DNA from: Kovacikia minuta CCNUW1 | GTDB taxonomy: Bacteria; Cyanobacteriota; Cyanobacteriia; Leptolyngbyales; Leptolyngbyaceae | Direction of reading: 5' to 3' | DNA: 64,000 bases | NCBI RefSeq assembly: GCF_020091585.1 | Contig: NZ_CP083582.1 | Span: forward strand, 4,784,536-4,848,535 | Shown: one piece after another, positions 19,819 through 61,768 of the stretch | Layout: each line of letters starts with the position of its first letter | How positions within the stretch are numbered: the stretch's first letter is position 1 | The notes under the pieces: model-generated | Told to the model about the DNA's origin: nothing | Seen by the model: only the letters and a program-made list of their open reading frames with translations | The model's database searches: none | Program-made: the position numbers and the translations under genes

Positions 19819-20180
19819 TAAGCGAAAATAGAATCTGGATACGCAGAAATAGAATTCGAATATTCGGAAATAGAATCACAACGTTGAGAGATAATTTCTG
19901 TTTACACTTTTATTAATTCAGCATAAGCCGAAATAGAATCTGGATAAGCCGACATTGATTCAGTTCAAGCGGAAATAGAATCCGGATAAGCCGAAATAGA
20001 ATCACAACATTGAGAGATAATTTCTGTTTATACTTTTATTAATTCAGCATAAGCCGAAATAGAATCTGGATAAGCCGAAATAGAATCTGGATAAGCCGAA
20101 ATAGAATCGCAACATTAAGAGATAACTTCTCTTCATGCATTTATTGATTCAGTATAAGCATTTACTTGATCTGGACGTTT
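19819..20180. repeat. array of diverged 21-bp-phased repeats
   Basis: The box GAAATAGAATC recurs with its central T at 19829, 19850, 19871, 19934, 19955, 19976, 19997, 20060, 20081 and 20102, and in a decayed form at 20165. Every spacing is an exact multiple of 21 bases, so sixteen periods are covered. Skipped positions are filled by two co-repeated blocks (ACAACGTTGAGAGATAATTTC and TTTATTAATTCAGCATAAGC), giving a 126-base higher-order duplication. Read on the minus strand each unit encodes a heptapeptide like DSISAYP, but stop codons interrupt it. It lies between the IS110 element and the TIR-STAND gene. The function is unknown. Confidence 0.85.
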
Positions 20181-40665: not shown

Positions 40666-41083
40666 GCAACGTCTCCCCCTCCAGTACTAAAACCACACCC
40701 GATTCAGTTCCTCTTCATCATAAAACGTCGGGTGAATTAAACGGGGCATCGCGATTAAGTTTCGACAGCGGTAGCCCTATTTAGGAAAGGAAAGAGATTA
40801 AGAGAGGGAGGGTGCGAGGGTGGGAGGTGAGAGCAGGGCATTTCGCCCTCTCCTATCCTCTCCCCCTCCTTCCCTTCAGGGCACTACCCCAATTTCATTT
40901 GGATTAACCACACCCCACACCCCACGCCCCACACCCCACACCCCACACCCCACGCCCCACAACACCCCACGCCCCACCCCACCCCACACCCCACACCCCA
41001 CACCCCACACCCACTTCACAAAACTGTGGCTTCCTAATCTAGGAAAACCGCCGTAATTCCCCATTCCTAATTCTCAACGCTTC
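40666..41083. other. 418-bp intergenic region with CCCCACA/CACGCCC heptamer tract
   Basis: From about 40908 to 41012 the sequence is almost only CACCCCA, CGCCCCA and CACACCC units (about fifteen heptamers, some decayed). The remainder contains GGTGGGA-type purine tracts (about 40795-40830). The ispH promoter should be in 40666-40790. No gene seen. Confidence 0.7.
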
Positions 41084-42210: not shown

Positions 42211-42262
42211 AACTCAAAACTCAAAACTCAAAACTCAAAACTCAAAACTCAAAACTCAAAAC
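42211..42262. repeat. CTCAAAA heptamer array
   Basis: Seven near-perfect tandem copies of CTCAAAA end four bases before the MFS start codon. Between them and the substrate-binding protein gene lie decayed GACACGG/AGGCAGA-type heptamers (about 42120-42200). They occupy the place expected for the ribosome-binding site of the MFS gene. Confidence 0.85.
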
Positions 42263-54247: not shown

Positions 54248-57200
54248 ATGACTGACTCAACCTCGCCCGACGAAATTTCCATCCATAGCGAGCAATCGCT
54301 GGAGGAATTGGCGTGGGCGATCGAGGCTTCACAGGGACAATTTTTGTTAATGTTGGCACGGTGCAACTATGCTCGCTTGCGATCGCAGTTGATCAACCGT
54401 TTGCAGGAAATCTGTGCGGTGGAAATTCGGGTTTTGACGCTTCAGAAATCGACGCACACCCTTTACACCCGCATCCGGGAAGAAGTGGCAGATGCCCCAC
54501 CCCAGGCATTGATGATTGTGGGGTTGGAGACGGTTGATGAGGTGAATCAGATGTTACCTGCGGTTAACTCGGTACGAGAAGAGTTCCGCAAAAATTTCTG
54601 CTTTCCGATCGTCCTCTGGATTACGGACGAGATTCAGAAAAAGCTGGTGCGACTGGCTCCCGATCTGGAAAGTTGGGCATCTTCTGTAGAATTTACCCTT
54701 GCCCCTGACACCCTCATTCAGAACCTACAGCAGGTGGGTGAGCGCCTGTTTTCTACCCTCCTGAGTCCATCACCGCTGTCTTTCAACCAACTGCTGACGA
54801 AGCTAGATCTGGGATTCTTGCAGCGATCGGAAGTCGAAATTGCCCTGCAAGATTTGCAACGCCAGGGGGTCAGTCTAAATGCAGAATTACAAGCCACCCT
54901 TAACTTTGCCCGTGGACTCAACACAACCGATCTCACCAGCGCACTAGAACATTTCCAGCAAAGCCTCAATTACTGGCAACAACAAACTGATCTCGAATCA
55001 CCACCCAATGAACCCTTCACACCTCACATCCCTCACCCCACCCCCCTACACCCCACACCCCACACCCCACACCCCTCACCCTCCCTCAAAACTGCCTTAA
55101 CCCTCTTCTACATCGGGCGCACCCTTTACTACATCTGCAATCGCGACAAGGATCGTCAGCCAGACTGGGACGCCGCCAGAAAACCATTGCAACAATGCCT
55201 GGAGAAATTTGAACAGGCAAACCGCCCCGATCTGGTTGCCAAAAGTATCACCCAGTTGGAGCGGGTGCTGGATCGCATGCAGTCATGGGATGACCTGGAA
55301 ACTCTGGCACAGAAGTCTTTGCCGTTGCAGCAGACCTACGGCAATCTCAGCAAACTGGCGCAGGATTACCGCTACCTGGCAATGGTTGCCTTGAAACAGC
55401 AGAAATTGACCGAGGCAAACCGTCTGGCTCACCAGGCATTAGATACCCTGGCGCAGGTTCCAGAAGACCAGGGATGGCAAGGACTCTACCTCCTGACCCT
55501 GGCACAAACCGAGCGGGCAGTGGGCAAGCAAGCCGAGGCGATCGCCCACCTGACTCAAGCCCATGCCCTGGGCGATCGGGGGCAACCAAGGCTTTACATC
55601 AGCATCCTCAAGAGTTTGCAAGACTTCTACCTGGAGCAAAAGAACTACCTGGAAGCATTCAAGCTCAAGCAAGAGCAGCGTTCCATTGAGCAGCAGTATC
55701 AGTTGCGGGCATTTGTTGGGGCTGGCAGGTTGCGACCCCAACGGCAGGAACTTACTGTTCCCAACAGCACCACCCTCCCATCAGAAACCGTTTCCCCAGA
55801 AATTGCCGCCGCTGGACGACAGCAAGACTTAAACCGTCTGGTTGAGCGGATTGGACGCAATGACTACCGGTTGATTGTGCTCCACGGCAACTCTGGCGTG
55901 GGCAAAAGCTCCCTGGTCAATGCCGGACTGGTGCCTGCCCTGAGGCAAAAGGCGATCGGCTTCCAAACCAATCTGCCCGTGGTAATGCGCGTTTACACCA
56001 ACTGGGCGGAAGAATTGGAACACTTGCTAACTCAGGCATTAGAAGCACGAAGAACCAGGAGCCAGGAGCCAGGAGCCAGGAGCCAGGAGCCAGAATTCGG
56101 GGTCAGGGGTCAGGGGTCAGAATTTGGAACTTTGACTTCAAAGCCCGAAATTTTGACTTCCGAACTCGAAACTCCGACCTCCAAACTCGAAACTTCGACT
56201 TCCAAACACGGAACTCTGACCTCCAAACTCGACGCTTCAACCTCCGAACCCGAAACTTCGACTTCCGAACTCGAAACTTTGACTTCTGAACCCGAAACTC
56301 CGACCTCCAAACTCGATGCGTCAACCTCAGAACCCGAAACTCCGACCTCCAAACTCGATGCGTCAACCTCAGAACCCGGAACTTCGACCTCAGGACTTAA
56401 AACTCAAAACTCAAAACTCAAAACTCAAATCTCCACACCCCATACCCCAAGCCCCACACCCCACACCCCACCTTCAACTCAAAACTTAAAACTTAAAACT
56501 CAAAACTTACTGACCAGCCTTCGTCAAAACGAACAAACCAACCTCCGCACGGTTCTGATCTTCGATCAGTTTGAAGAATTCTTCTTCGTTTACCCCAAGC
56601 CAGAAGACCGCAAACCGTTCTTTGAATTCCTGACAGATTGTCTGCAAGTATTGTCTGTCAAAGTATTGCTGGTGTTGCGGGAAGATTATCTTCATTTCCT
56701 GCTGGAGTGCAGCCGCCTACCTGCAATGGCAACCACCGGCATTGATATTCTGAGCAACAATGTCCGCTATGGCTTGGGCAACTTTACCGTCAACGACACC
56801 AGGGCGATTATTCGCAGCCTCACCGATCGCGCCCGCTTCCATCTGGAACCTGCCCTGGTCGATCAACTGGTGCAAGATCTGGCAAGTGATCTGGGAGAAG
56901 TACGCCCGATCGAACTTCAGGTGGTCGGGGCACAACTGCAAGCGGACAACATCACGACCCTGACTCAGTATCAGGCGTTGGGAGGCAACCCAAAGGAAGC
57001 GTTAGTCGAACGCTATCTGGCAGAAGTCGTTGCCGATTGCGGCGCAGAGAATCACAAGATTGCAGAACTGCTGCTGTTTCTGCTGACTGACGAAAAGGGA
57101 ACCCGTCCGCTGAAGACCCGTGCCGAGCTGGAAAAGGAACTACATGCACTGGCGGCGCTGGATGAAAAAACCAATGCGTTGGATCTGGTGCTGACGATTT

Positions 57201-59809
57201 TTGTCAAATCTGGTTTGGTGTTGTTACTGCCAGAAGTTCCAGCCGATCGCTATCAACTCGTGCATGACTATCTCGCTGCCTTTATTCGCCACCAGCAGGA
57301 ACCAAAACTAAATCAACTGATTGCAGACCTGGAAGCAGAACGACAGCAACGGAAACGGAGCGAAGAAAGGCTTGGTCAAGTTCAGAAAAGGCAAATTCCA
57401 CTGGCAGTCACAGCAGTCTCATTTATCGTATTGGCGACTTTAGCAGCCGTCTTTGCATTCCAGGCAGAGTCCCAGAGGAAACGGGCGGAAGTGAGTCAAA
57501 TCGATGCTTTAAATGCGTATTCAGAAGCCCTGCTTGCTTCAAATAAACCATTTGATGCCCTTATGGAAAGCCTGCGGGCAGGCAAGCGGTTGCAGAGTGT
57601 CACCTGGGCAGGCGAAGAGTTGCGATCGCGGATCACGACTGCATTGCAAAAAGCAGTTTACGGCGTGAGAGAACAGATTCGTTTAGAGGGACACACCGAT
57701 CGCGTCAATGATGTTGACTTTAGTCCTGATGGCAGAACGATCGCCTCAGTCAGCAATGATCAGACGCTCAAACTTTGGAGTCTAGATGGCAAATTGCTCA
57801 AAACAATTGATGTTCAGAGTGAGTGGATTAACGGCGTTAGTTTCAGCCCCAATGGTCAAATCATTGCCACCGTCGATCAAGCAGGAGCTGTCAAACTCTG
57901 GAGCTTGGACGGTAAACTGATCAAAACCTTTCAAGGGCGTAATAATTGGCTGGTTGGTATCAGTTTTAGTCCCAATGGCAAGATGCTTGTCTCAAGCGGC
58001 AATGGTAATCGACCTGTGGAGCTTTGGAGTTTGAATGGCAAGTTACTCAAAACGTTGACAATAGATACAGATACGCAAGTCAATGATGTCCGCTTCAGCC
58101 CCGATAACATGATTATTGCTGCGGCAACTGACAACGGCATGGTGCAACTCTGGAATCTCAACGGTCAACTCCTCAGTACTTTTCAAGCAGATCGCTTGTG
58201 GCTTGCCAGTGTCAGTTTCAGCCCCGATGGTCAAACAATCGCATCGGGTGGAGGCGATGAAAAAACGATCAAACTCTGGAGCAGAAACGGCACGTTGCTG
58301 AAAACGCTTGAGGGACATAGCGGTAGTGTGATGGACATCCGCTTTAGCCCCGATGGTCAGACGATCGCCTCAGCCAGTAATGACAAAACCATCAAACTGT
58401 GGAGCAGAGATGATACCTTGCTCAATACCCTTGAAGGGCATAAGGAGGGAGTTAGGGGTGTTGCCTTCAGCCCCGATGGTAGAACCATTGCTTCCTCCAG
58501 TACTGATAAAACAGTTAGACTTTGGAACCTGACAGGGCAAGCAGACGTTAAGGTGCTGCGTGAGCATACCAACACAGTCAATGGTGTTGCCTTTAGCGCC
58601 GACAGCAAGATGATGGCGACTGCAAGCAATGACGGAACCGCCAGATTCTGGAACCTGAATGGCAAGTTGCTCAAAACTCTCAAACGTAGTAGTTCAGTGA
58701 ATCAGATAGAATTTAGCCCGGATGGGAAACAGGTGGCAACTGCAAATGCAGGTGGCAATCTAGGACTGTGGGATGTGTCATCAGGTCGGCAACTCGCGAA
58801 ATGGAGAGGCACAACGCGGACTGGATGGAAATATATTGGGCTTGGAGTCGCTTCTCAACCCGATCAAGCAACAGGCTTCCGAGTTCAGCAGGTTTATGAA
58901 AACTCACCAGCCCAGAAAGCAGGTTTAAGGGCTGGAGATCGCATCCTGATGGTAGATGGTCAGTCCCTGGTGGGTAAGAGTGATACAGAATTTTCCAGTT
59001 TGGTTCGCGGCGTAACAGCAGGTACACGGGTGAATCTGCGAATTTCCCGTCAGGGCAGGAGCGACTTTGACCTCCCTATAGTTTGCGGCGAGGTAAATCC
59101 CCCTGCGGATATGTATGATGTTAGCTTCAGTCCAGATGGAAAGATGTTTGCCAGTGCCAGTGAAGACAAAACGGCTAAACTCTGGAGCCTGAAGGGTAAA
59201 CTACTCAAGTCCCTTGAGGGGCACAGTAAAGCAGTCAATGAAGTTGCTTTCAGTCCCGATGGCAAGACGATCGCAACCGCCAGTAAAGATAAGACAGTCA
59301 AACTCTGGAGTCTGAACGGTACACTCCTTCAAACGCTGCGTGGACACAGCGATGAGGTGAAACGGGTAACTTTTAGTCCTGACGGCAAGACGATCGCAAC
59401 CACCAGTAATGATAAAACCATTAAACTCTGGAGCTTAGATGGAAAGCTGCTGAAAACCTTTGAGGGGCATACCGATGGCGTTCTTTCCGTCGCTTTCAGC
59501 TCAGATGGAAAAACAATTGCATCAGGCAGTGATGATAAAACGGTTAAACTTTGGAATCTGGATGGCAAACTGCTCAACACCCTTTATGGACAGTCTGATT
59601 CAGTTGTGAGCGTGCATTTCAGCCCAGACAGTAAAATTATCACCTCTGTTAGCTCGCAAAGAGCATTAGTCCATTGGAATTTAGGTCAACTGAGCCTCAA
59701 TGAGTTAATGCCACGCGGCTGCAACTGGGTGCGAGACTACCTGAAAAATGCTCCTAACCTCAACGAAAGCGATCGCCACCTCTGCGACAACATCAACAGT
59801 CAGAAATGA
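54248..59809 (+). CDS. giant STAND NTPase with WD40 propellers and embedded PDZ domain
   Basis: 1853 residues. Parts: an N-terminal domain of unknown type (about 1-170; FCFPIVLWITDEIQKKLVRL); helical TPR-like repeats (about 210-490) containing a heptamer-derived linker (about 257-278); an nSTAND1-type NTPase (about 515-1010) with Walker A GNSGVGKSS and Walker B FDQFEEFFF, separated by about 155 low-complexity residues; coiled coil; one transmembrane helix (about 1052-1070, VTAVSFIVLATLAAVFAF); fourteen WD40 repeats, enough for two seven-bladed propellers; and a PDZ domain (about 1527-1615; YENSPAQKAGLRAGDRIL) between repeats 9 and 10. A membrane-tethered sensor/signal integrator is likely; the ligand is unknown. 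The reading frame is intact over 5.5 kb. Confidence 0.9.
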   Translation: MTDSTSPDEISIHSEQSLEELAWAIEASQGQFLLMLARCNYARLRSQLINRLQEICAVEIRVLTLQKSTHTLYTRIREEVADAPPQALMIVGLETVDEVNQMLPAVNSVREEFRKNFCFPIVLWITDEIQKKLVRLAPDLESWASSVEFTLAPDTLIQNLQQVGERLFSTLLSPSPLSFNQLLTKLDLGFLQRSEVEIALQDLQRQGVSLNAELQATLNFARGLNTTDLTSALEHFQQSLNYWQQQTDLESPPNEPFTPHIPHPTPLHPTPHTPHPSPSLKTALTLFYIGRTLYYICNRDKDRQPDWDAARKPLQQCLEKFEQANRPDLVAKSITQLERVLDRMQSWDDLETLAQKSLPLQQTYGNLSKLAQDYRYLAMVALKQQKLTEANRLAHQALDTLAQVPEDQGWQGLYLLTLAQTERAVGKQAEAIAHLTQAHALGDRGQPRLYISILKSLQDFYLEQKNYLEAFKLKQEQRSIEQQYQLRAFVGAGRLRPQRQELTVPNSTTLPSETVSPEIAAAGRQQDLNRLVERIGRNDYRLIVLHGNSGVGKSSLVNAGLVPALRQKAIGFQTNLPVVMRVYTNWAEELEHLLTQALEARRTRSQEPGARSQEPEFGVRGQGSEFGTLTSKPEILTSELETPTSKLETSTSKHGTLTSKLDASTSEPETSTSELETLTSEPETPTSKLDASTSEPETPTSKLDASTSEPGTSTSGLKTQNSKLKTQISTPHTPSPTPHTPPSTQNLKLKTQNLLTSLRQNEQTNLRTVLIFDQFEEFFFVYPKPEDRKPFFEFLTDCLQVLSVKVLLVLREDYLHFLLECSRLPAMATTGIDILSNNVRYGLGNFTVNDTRAIIRSLTDRARFHLEPALVDQLVQDLASDLGEVRPIELQVVGAQLQADNITTLTQYQALGGNPKEALVERYLAEVVADCGAENHKIAELLLFLLTDEKGTRPLKTRAELEKELHALAALDEKTNALDLVLTIFVKSGLVLLLPEVPADRYQLVHDYLAAFIRHQQEPKLNQLIADLEAERQQRKRSEERLGQVQKRQIPLAVTAVSFIVLATLAAVFAFQAESQRKRAEVSQIDALNAYSEALLASNKPFDALMESLRAGKRLQSVTWAGEELRSRITTALQKAVYGVREQIRLEGHTDRVNDVDFSPDGRTIASVSNDQTLKLWSLDGKLLKTIDVQSEWINGVSFSPNGQIIATVDQAGAVKLWSLDGKLIKTFQGRNNWLVGISFSPNGKMLVSSGNGNRPVELWSLNGKLLKTLTIDTDTQVNDVRFSPDNMIIAAATDNGMVQLWNLNGQLLSTFQADRLWLASVSFSPDGQTIASGGGDEKTIKLWSRNGTLLKTLEGHSGSVMDIRFSPDGQTIASASNDKTIKLWSRDDTLLNTLEGHKEGVRGVAFSPDGRTIASSSTDKTVRLWNLTGQADVKVLREHTNTVNGVAFSADSKMMATASNDGTARFWNLNGKLLKTLKRSSSVNQIEFSPDGKQVATANAGGNLGLWDVSSGRQLAKWRGTTRTGWKYIGLGVASQPDQATGFRVQQVYENSPAQKAGLRAGDRILMVDGQSLVGKSDTEFSSLVRGVTAGTRVNLRISRQGRSDFDLPIVCGEVNPPADMYDVSFSPDGKMFASASEDKTAKLWSLKGKLLKSLEGHSKAVNEVAFSPDGKTIATASKDKTVKLWSLNGTLLQTLRGHSDEVKRVTFSPDGKTIATTSNDKTIKLWSLDGKLLKTFEGHTDGVLSVAFSSDGKTIASGSDDKTVKLWNLDGKLLNTLYGQSDSVVSVHFSPDSKIITSVSSQRALVHWNLGQLSLNELMPRGCNWVRDYLKNAPNLNESDRHLCDNINSQK
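56065..56430 (+). repeat. degenerate heptamer array forming coding sequence inside the STAND gene
   Basis: From 56065 AGCCAGG units, then from about 56121 to 56430 roughly 44 heptamers of ACTCGAA/ACTTCGA/CCTCCAA type, ending in perfect ACTCAAA units. Three heptamers make 21 bases, so the protein shows seven-residue repeats (SKLDAST, SEPETPT, SELETLT and similar). The array sits between the Walker A and Walker B motifs. The frame remains open, and codons are biased only by the repeat. Confidence 0.85.
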
Positions 59810-59894: not shown

Positions 59895-60224
59895 ATGAGC
59901 ATTATCCTCAAGCCTGAACACGAGCAATTGATCCAGGCTCAAATTTCAAAAGGTAAATATTCCAACGCGGATGAGGTGGTTAGTGAAGCCTTAAAGCTGC
60001 TAGAAGAGCGTGAGCAACGGCTAGAAGACCTGCGGCAAAAGATTGCTGTGGGAACCAAACAAATCCAGAAGGGACAGGTTACAGAGGGTGAAACTTTTTT
60101 TGCCAAGTCTCAGACCTACCATGATCTTGATGCGCTAGCTGGAACCTGGAGCGATGCAGCAGCAGCAGAGTTCTTGAGTGCGATCGCAGATTTCAGCCAT
60201 GTAGACAAAGAACTATGGCAGTAA
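59895..60224 (+). CDS. chimeric type II antitoxin (ParD-like N-terminus, VapB-like C-terminus)
   Basis: 109 residues. The first about 70 residues look like a ParD ribbon-helix-helix antitoxin (SIILKPEHEQLIQAQISKGKYSNADEVVSEAL split here for readability of motif: KGKYSNADEV, EALKLLEERE, QKIAVGTKQI). The last about 38 residues (HDLDALAGTWS to VDKELWQ) are the toxin-neutralising tail usually found before PIN-domain toxins. The stop overlaps the following toxin ATG (60215), so the genes are coupled. A fusion that joins a DNA-binding half of one system to the tail of another is unusual. The toxin gene that follows is broken. Confidence 0.75.
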   Translation: MSIILKPEHEQLIQAQISKGKYSNADEVVSEALKLLEEREQRLEDLRQKIAVGTKQIQKGQVTEGETFFAKSQTYHDLDALAGTWSDAAAAEFLSAIADFSHVDKELWQ

Positions 60225-60834: not shown

Positions 60835-61768
60835 GAACCCATTTGGGATCTATATAATGGTGAATGAAGGCATCTATAATCCTCTAATTTAACGGCTATG
60901 GCATATTCGAGCAGTCTCACTGATGCAGAATGGGAAATTCTTGAACCGCTGTTGCCTCAGATATTACCCAAGAAGAAACGGACCCGACCCTGCGATTGGA
61001 CGAAGCGGGAGATCATTGATGGCATCCTTTATCAACTCAAGAACGGTTGCAATTGGGAAGACTTACCCAAAGACTTACCTCCCTACTCGACGGTGTATTG
61101 GCACTACAAGCAGTGGCGGGAAGCTGGGGTGATCGAGAAACTGATGGGAGTATTGCATGGACAGGTGCGGGAACAGGTTAAAAAAAAGCCCAAATGGACG
61201 AGGTTAATCATCATTGACTCGCAAGCGGTGAAGAATACTTGCAATGCCAGTGTAGACTCAAAGGGCTTCTGTTTTTACAAAGCGACCAATGGGATTAAAA
61301 GGCACCTGGCTGTTGATACGCTTGGGTTTCCCTTTTTCACTCATTGCACAAAAGCTGATGTTTCCGATGATCTGGGATTGCTTGAGATGTTGACGCTCAA
61401 CATTGACTATTTCAAGTCAAAACCTGTTAACATTCCCAAGATTACCATCTTGCTCGACCACGGCTATCACATTGATGCTTTGATTGAAGCATTGGAGCAG
61501 GTTTATCCTCAAATTATGACGAAAATCAGGTTTGAGCGTTCAACCAAACCCTCGAAACAAGAGAAAGCAGCGCAAGGAAAATCTGGATTTGTCCCAGCAG
61601 TCGCAAGATGGGTCATCGAACGATCCAATGCTTGGATGGAGCGGTGTAAAAGTTTGGTTAAAAACTTTGAGCGCACCCTATCTCATGCGGAAACTAAGAT
61701 TAACCTCTGCTTTGTCAGGCTAATGCTGAAGCGGCTTGCAGCTACTTCCTGAGATCTCAAATGGGTTC
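60835..61768 (+). mobile_element. IS5-type insertion sequence
   Basis: 934 bp. Ends GAACCCATTTGGGATCT (60835-60851) and the inverted AGATCTCAAATGGGTTC (61752-61768), one mismatch in 17. TATA is duplicated at 60831-60834 and 61769-61772. A 4-bp duplication is supported by the split host gene, which is in frame only if TATA is counted once. Contains one complete transposase. The transposase stop overlaps the right inverted repeat. Confidence 0.9.
60898..61752 (+). CDS. IS5 family transposase
   Basis: 284 residues, intact. The N-terminal DUF4096-like region has LTDAEWEILEPLLP, DGILYQLKNGCNWEDLPKD and YWHYKQWREAGV. The catalytic DDE residues are likely the Asp in IIDSQAVK, the Asp in ILLDHGYH and the Glu in WVIERSNAWMERCKSL. 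A DNA transposase that moves the element and duplicates the target. ATG 60898 lies 47 bases inside the left inverted repeat. No frameshift, so possibly active. Confidence 0.93.
   Translation: MAYSSSLTDAEWEILEPLLPQILPKKKRTRPCDWTKREIIDGILYQLKNGCNWEDLPKDLPPYSTVYWHYKQWREAGVIEKLMGVLHGQVREQVKKKPKWTRLIIIDSQAVKNTCNASVDSKGFCFYKATNGIKRHLAVDTLGFPFFTHCTKADVSDDLGLLEMLTLNIDYFKSKPVNIPKITILLDHGYHIDALIEALEQVYPQIMTKIRFERSTKPSKQEKAAQGKSGFVPAVARWVIERSNAWMERCKSLVKNFERTLSHAETKINLCFVRLMLKRLAATS

Follow-up and report, generated by a model that had tools for sequence, protein, structure and literature searches.

Heptamer repeats as probable captured coding DNA in an nSTAND1 ATPase loop and in other genes of a cyanobacterium

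Introduction

How does a class of repeats regarded as intergenic come to lie inside the open reading frame of an ATPase, between its Walker A and Walker B motifs? Cyanobacterial STRR heptamer repeats, reportedly described by Mazel et al. in 1990, have been known for decades with no agreed role and have mostly been treated as intergenic. The window analyzed here, a stretch of 64,000 nucleotides from Kovacikia minuta CCNUW1 to which all window positions refer, contains such heptamers within the NTPase core of an nSTAND1 gene. A first-pass annotation had described them as about 44 units at 56065-56430 and had proposed that an intergenic repeat class became protein sequence in a place where inserts should disturb the ATPase fold. 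We followed this array into its homologues, into a predicted structure and across the genome, and found that the nSTAND1 array does not stand alone but is one of many such cases that the genome contains.

Results

Pfam profile searches of the carrier open reading frame (Table 1) returned matches to nSTAND1 (PF20703, E 7.7e-32) and WD40 (PF00400, E 3e-134), with an nSTAND1 score of 111.8 bits against a curated cut-off of 27.1 and both Walker motifs present. The 1853-residue protein comprises an N-terminal region followed by the nSTAND1 ATPase and then the WD40 repeats. Walker A and Walker B are separated by 666 nt, the nSTAND1 profile matches on both sides of the repeat region, and the frame is open across all 1853 codons. 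A ParD-like antitoxin gene (PF03693) lies directly downstream at 59895-60224, and a further ORF of 284 aa at 60898-61752 is transposase-like by appearance. PADLOC identified no clear defense system.

Table 1. Window coordinates of the nSTAND1 gene, its motifs and its heptamer arrays
Feature	Position	Strand	Basis
nSTAND1 ATPase with C-terminal WD40 repeats, carrier of the captured arrays	54248..59809	+	1853 aa ORF
Second in-frame heptamer array, CCACACC class, in the N-terminal linker, PTPLHPTPHTPHP	55019..55081	+	TRF and homologue comparison
Walker A, GNSGVGKSS	55886..55912	+	sequence and homologue comparison; motif invariant in alignments A1 and A2
CCAGGAG x5.6 (peptide RSQEPGA)	56055..56093	+	TRF, period 7
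Loop linking two confident helices, predicted as disordered (pLDDT about 35; model residues 91-227)	56066..56476	+	AlphaFold
GGGTCAG heptamers, about 3	56100..56122	+	direct reading of the sequence
Diverged heptamers with 21/42/84-bp higher-order units (TSELETS / TSKLDAS)	56146..56391	+	TRF
ACTCAAA x5.6 (peptide KTQNSKL)	56395..56433	+	TRF, period 7
CCACACC x5.6 (peptide PTPHTPS)	56433..56471	+	TRF, period 7
ACTCAAA/ACTTAAA heptamers (peptide NLKLKTQ)	56476..56507	+	TRF, period 7 (AACTCAA)
Walker B, VLIFDQFEEFFF	56552..56587	+	sequence and homologue comparison

The array proved real and longer than first described. In-frame heptamer repeats occupy 56052-56510, a span of 459 nt or about 65 heptamers, and the span originally given would itself hold 52 heptamers rather than 44; the original estimate of about 155 residues agrees with the 153 codons counted here. 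Identity of the region to itself at a lag of seven bases was 0.615, compared with 0.272 ± 0.020 (maximum 0.35) in 2000 codon shuffles. The array had been read as a gradient from ACTCGAA to ACTCAAA forms, a description contradicted by its composition: five or more heptamer classes lie side by side as a mosaic, in the order CCAGGAG, GGGTCAG, an ACTTCGA-like block that has diverged and shows a 21/42-bp higher-order unit, ACTCAAA, CCACACC and ACTTAAA/ACTCAAA. Perfect runs within it extend to only about 4-6 units. Eight similar copies of the 21-bp class at 56146-56391 occur at distant sites in the genome with 73-81% identity, and heptamers of the same kinds as those in the nSTAND1 array recur elsewhere in the window, for example at 40908-41012 and 42211-42262. 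A separate tandem repeat at 19819-20159, built of 21/63/126-bp units (AAGCCGAAATAGAATC), is unlike the heptamers.

Homologues lacking an array identify the corresponding empty site. Among array-free homologues with both motifs, the Walker A to Walker B distance is mostly 240-290 nt; L012, which stands closest on the tree, has no array and a distance of 249 nt, and a second close homologue (L013) is likewise without one. Together with the intergenic occurrence of the same heptamers in the window and genome-wide, these empty sites bear out the original proposal that an intergenic-type repeat class became protein sequence. Most homologues lack an array, nearly all arrays that are present are in frame, and arrays of different classes occupy the same site in L001, L020, L022, L023, L028, L030, L045, L049, L106, L110 and L124. 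The N-terminal linker array has counterparts as well, with arrays at nearly the same distance from Walker A in L001, L024, L026, L035, L062 and L122. A tree of the flanks with 139 rows, which includes Nostoc rows left out of a 78-row tree, gives at least 12 changes of array state, and well-supported branches of the 78-row tree force 5, both counts being drawn from related sequences. Comparison of these homologues thus shows a naturally variable linker at which arrays have been gained or lost many times. One exception to the open frame is a paralogue in the same genome, about 60 kb from the window gene (L001; G000:C1:4901126-4903872, minus strand), which carries the same heptamer kinds at the same site yet is out of frame, with a Walker A to Walker B distance of 404 nt and seven consecutive C next to its array. 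Slippage by a single base or an error in sequencing would explain this frame break as well as a gain or loss of heptamers would.

Structure prediction was consistent with a tolerated insert. In an AlphaFold model built with 40 sequences, the core has pLDDT values mostly above 90, whereas the 137-residue insert is at about 35, as had been anticipated for a disordered loop excluded from the core. Foldseek matches to ORC/Cdc6, Apaf-1 and CED-4 (E 8e-6 to 2e-3), with low TM-scores for a model that includes the disordered loop, are as expected for a STAND ATPase with a STAND/AAA-type fold. The model suggests that the core is intact and that the insert occupies a variable loop between two helices without disturbing the fold; the disorder of the loop is likewise a predicted property. 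The placement between Walker A and Walker B thus holds in sequence, but structurally the site is a predicted variable loop between two helices, and the expected disturbance of the fold finds no counterpart at a linker that repeatedly takes in repeats.

Orthologues from Nostoc provided the closest view of how such a loop changes. We searched 53 genomes of the genus to which G065 (Nostoc sp. S4) belongs with a 125-aa N-terminal query and read further regions in addition, affording a counted set of 47 loci with both Walker motifs. Because the query is N-terminal, the search does not favor loci with in-frame downstream halves; nevertheless, all 47 are in frame. Heptapeptide arrays, usually long, were present in 38 of the 47 (among them TSELGTS, SEGQLSP, LEPEHSR, SEAQRSS and TFDTRSS), as counted by eye from translations; the threshold applied automatically in building the tree is stricter. 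A conserved non-repetitive domain did not appear at this site in the orthologues. Walker A to Walker B lengths range from 255 to 657 nt, and 33 of the 47 equal 6 modulo 21, so that the predicted steps of three heptamers (21 bp) are mainly what is seen. Where flanks share 90-93% nucleotide identity, identity within the loop is often 0.46-0.65 and can fall below 50%. In counts drawn from related sequences, neighboring 21-bp units differ about equally often at the first, second and third codon positions (163/184/182, with about 1915 sites compared per position; p 0.47), whereas the flanks of nine close orthologues give 957/446/2870, a contrast with p 3e-67. Strong purifying selection therefore acts on the flanks, and the array is without residue-level constraint. 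What the cell preserves is the frame and not the sequence of the array. Loops of L159, L172, L183 and L189 contain other repeated peptides beside the heptapeptide array, CRDAIHRVFPDW, RPSADAMNRVSTK and VQTRLIAS, which look like translated palindromic repeats of Nostoc.

The abundance of the same heptamers elsewhere in the K. minuta genome was surveyed in the window together with 73 further 20-kb samples, 1.524 Mb in total. Arrays were scored as genic when they lay within an open frame of at least 200 aa with at least 150 nt on each side, the ORFs being taken without a gene caller. By this definition, 70 of 311 heptamer arrays are inside about 37 long ORFs and 241 are elsewhere. Since the coding fraction, measured on 724 kb of the sample, is about 79%, genes are strongly depleted of arrays, though by no means free of them; scaled to 8.56 Mb, the survey gives a rough figure of about 200 genes with heptamer inserts. 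Conserved Pfam domains around or flanking these inserts include GyrA-type topoisomerase, MnmE, cytochrome c assembly protein, ABC ATPase, E1-E2 ATPase, UvrD-type helicase, hydantoinase A/B, tocopherol cyclase, UbiA and GT9. The MnmE GTPase (L222:17907-19430, minus strand) carries a heptamer-derived insert of roughly 50 aa just after NKTD; the insert, which lies between NKxD and the next conserved segment, is absent in the eight relatives compared, and in MnmE of G011 this loop holds a heptamer-like insert of another kind. As in the window array, several heptamer classes stand side by side in the MnmE insert. The GyrA insert is located in a linker that varies among relatives. A fused hydantoinase A/B ORF of 1469 aa contains several separate in-frame arrays (L201:1219-5625; G000:C1 about 5.239-5.244 Mb, minus strand).

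Two heptamer classes, CCCCACA and GGGCAGA, are free of stops whichever strand is read and thus permit a comparison of strand use. Combined, they are found 28 times in sense and once in antisense orientation inside genes, versus 8:9 between co-directional genes (Fisher p 1.8e-4). The strands used encode PTPHTPHP and GRGQKAE, and those unused GVGCGVW and SALCPLP. Among inserts with a fully open other strand, the bias was 12 to 2 (p 0.013). This strand lock is partly forced, because neighboring classes in composite arrays contain stops; a count of 33 of 36 arrays as more hydrophilic on the coding strand was naive in this respect, and 12 of 14 remained after composites were merged and stop-blocked arrays dropped. 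The data give moderate support to selection for hydrophilic, disordered loops as the probable cause of the strand lock. The 21/42-bp periodicity was also considered as a signature of coding or frame selection and dropped, since similar repeats with the same periodicity occur outside long ORFs and ordinary arrays have the same lag pattern inside and outside ORFs. The 21-bp steps therefore partly reflect the repeat unit and not only frame selection.

Discussion

We consider it highly likely that dispersed STRR heptamers have been captured as coding DNA in an nSTAND1 loop where length matters little, and that the same process operates in many genes. In our view, STRR arrays turn into disordered loops across the whole genome, and frame, stops and hydrophilicity act as the filter. 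In such a scheme, arrays would first arrive by insertion, recombination or slippage from a seed. Whichever of the three frames of a strand is read, a perfect heptamer array yields one and the same cyclic seven-residue peptide, and in many heptamer classes this peptide is free of stops. An insertion would survive if its total length kept the downstream frame, its strand were stop-free and its peptide were hydrophilic enough for disorder outside the core. After capture, array length would shift mostly by multiples of 21 bp while the amino-acid sequence drifted, and whole arrays would be lost or replaced over time. Translation of the insert itself is suggested by the open frame and the conserved flanks.

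The origin step admits another account, in which short seeds were expanded into arrays on the spot by slippage and nothing came from elsewhere. Homologues that lack an array already have a variable linker as their loop, which would suit such growth, but the juxtaposition of several classes within one insert, in the window gene and in MnmE, and the eight distant copies of the 21-bp class speak against it, and we regard it as a tentative minority account of that step. A different question is whether arrays are kept because the nSTAND1 loop works as a disordered arm, for instance as a spacer, as a sticky segment rich in S/T/E or as the rapidly changing recognition surface of a STAND conflict protein. 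The best argument for such an arm is its high frequency in Nostoc, where 38 of 47 orthologues retain a usually long array; arrays also enter the N-terminal linker in this family, the peptides differ strongly between orthologues whose flanks remain 90-93% identical, and multicellular bacteria are described as having NTP-dependent conflict systems whose effectors are hypervariable (PMC7159879), although the nSTAND1 family is not named there. Many homologues do without an array, however, housekeeping genes have taken in the same peptides, and the equal change at all three codon positions is the best argument against any sequence-dependent role. On balance, a functional arm seems unlikely. Still less likely is the combined proposal that arrays are a standing source of frame-indifferent hydrophilic loops in filamentous cyanobacteria, with about 200 proteins changed in a single genome, and that the nSTAND1 loop in particular was co-opted to form a hypervariable surface for tuning or targeting a conflict ATPase.

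Gain or loss of one or two heptamers could in principle throw the downstream ATPase out of frame and so act as a phase-variation switch, as the out-of-frame paralogue with the same heptamers at the same site might suggest. The run of seven C in that paralogue provides an equally good explanation, perfect runs in the window are short, lengths move by 21 bp and every counted Nostoc orthologue is in frame, making a switch very improbable. The same frameshifted paralogue is what could be cited for a decaying gene in which a repeat grew after gene death. This reading is already contradicted by the open 1853-codon frame, the intact Walker motifs, the strong purifying selection in the Nostoc flanks and the high-confidence predicted core, and we give it almost no weight. 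Capture of dispersed heptamers thus remains our preferred explanation.

Under that explanation, cyanobacterial heptamer repeats are a measurable source of new protein sequence. Because 7 and 3 are coprime, the same peptide is obtained in every frame, which removes one obstacle on the path from non-coding DNA to protein. The inserts in conserved genes such as MnmE and GyrA make insert tolerance, selection for disorder and the path from repeat to loop testable with strains and ordinary biochemistry.

Domain order and motifs of the window protein are the same as in known nSTAND1 (PF20703)-WD40 ATPases; unlike those ATPases at large, the array-bearing loop is restricted to some lineages. With STRR heptamers the present arrays share tandem seven-base units, dispersal, a mainly intergenic location and a sizeable minority in ORFs. 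According to Rehm et al. 2015 (PMC4692102), 68% of GGGGA(C/T)T repeats in Nostoc PCC 7120 are intergenic, so that roughly one in three touches a gene; their text contains none of the terms 'amino acid', 'in-frame' and 'translated', and the protein side is untreated there. What distinguishes the present work from STRR studies is that the arrays are followed into protein, as in-frame disordered loops with a strand lock, empty sites and repeated gain at one site; in place of the named STRR classes, ours are described by sequence alone. A literature search with most subscription journals outside its reach found no paper on heptamer-derived protein loops, nor did any of four array peptides occur in the papers searched.

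Phase-variable heptanucleotide tracts, such as that of Haemophilus HMW1A (PMC8262952), likewise consist of short tandem units with changeable number. In contrast to such tracts, the loops described here give no sign of ON/OFF length classes, and the 47 Nostoc orthologues, at one assembly per species, are all in frame. A further parallel is offered by the Rickettsia palindromic elements reported by Ogata and Claverie, which are in-frame inserts in many unrelated ORFs at tolerated sites. There too, a dispersed repeat of non-coding type enters many unrelated ORFs in frame. The Rickettsia elements are palindromic and of defined length, which the window array is not; the present arrays are tandem heptamers of open length that encode the same peptide in all three frames.
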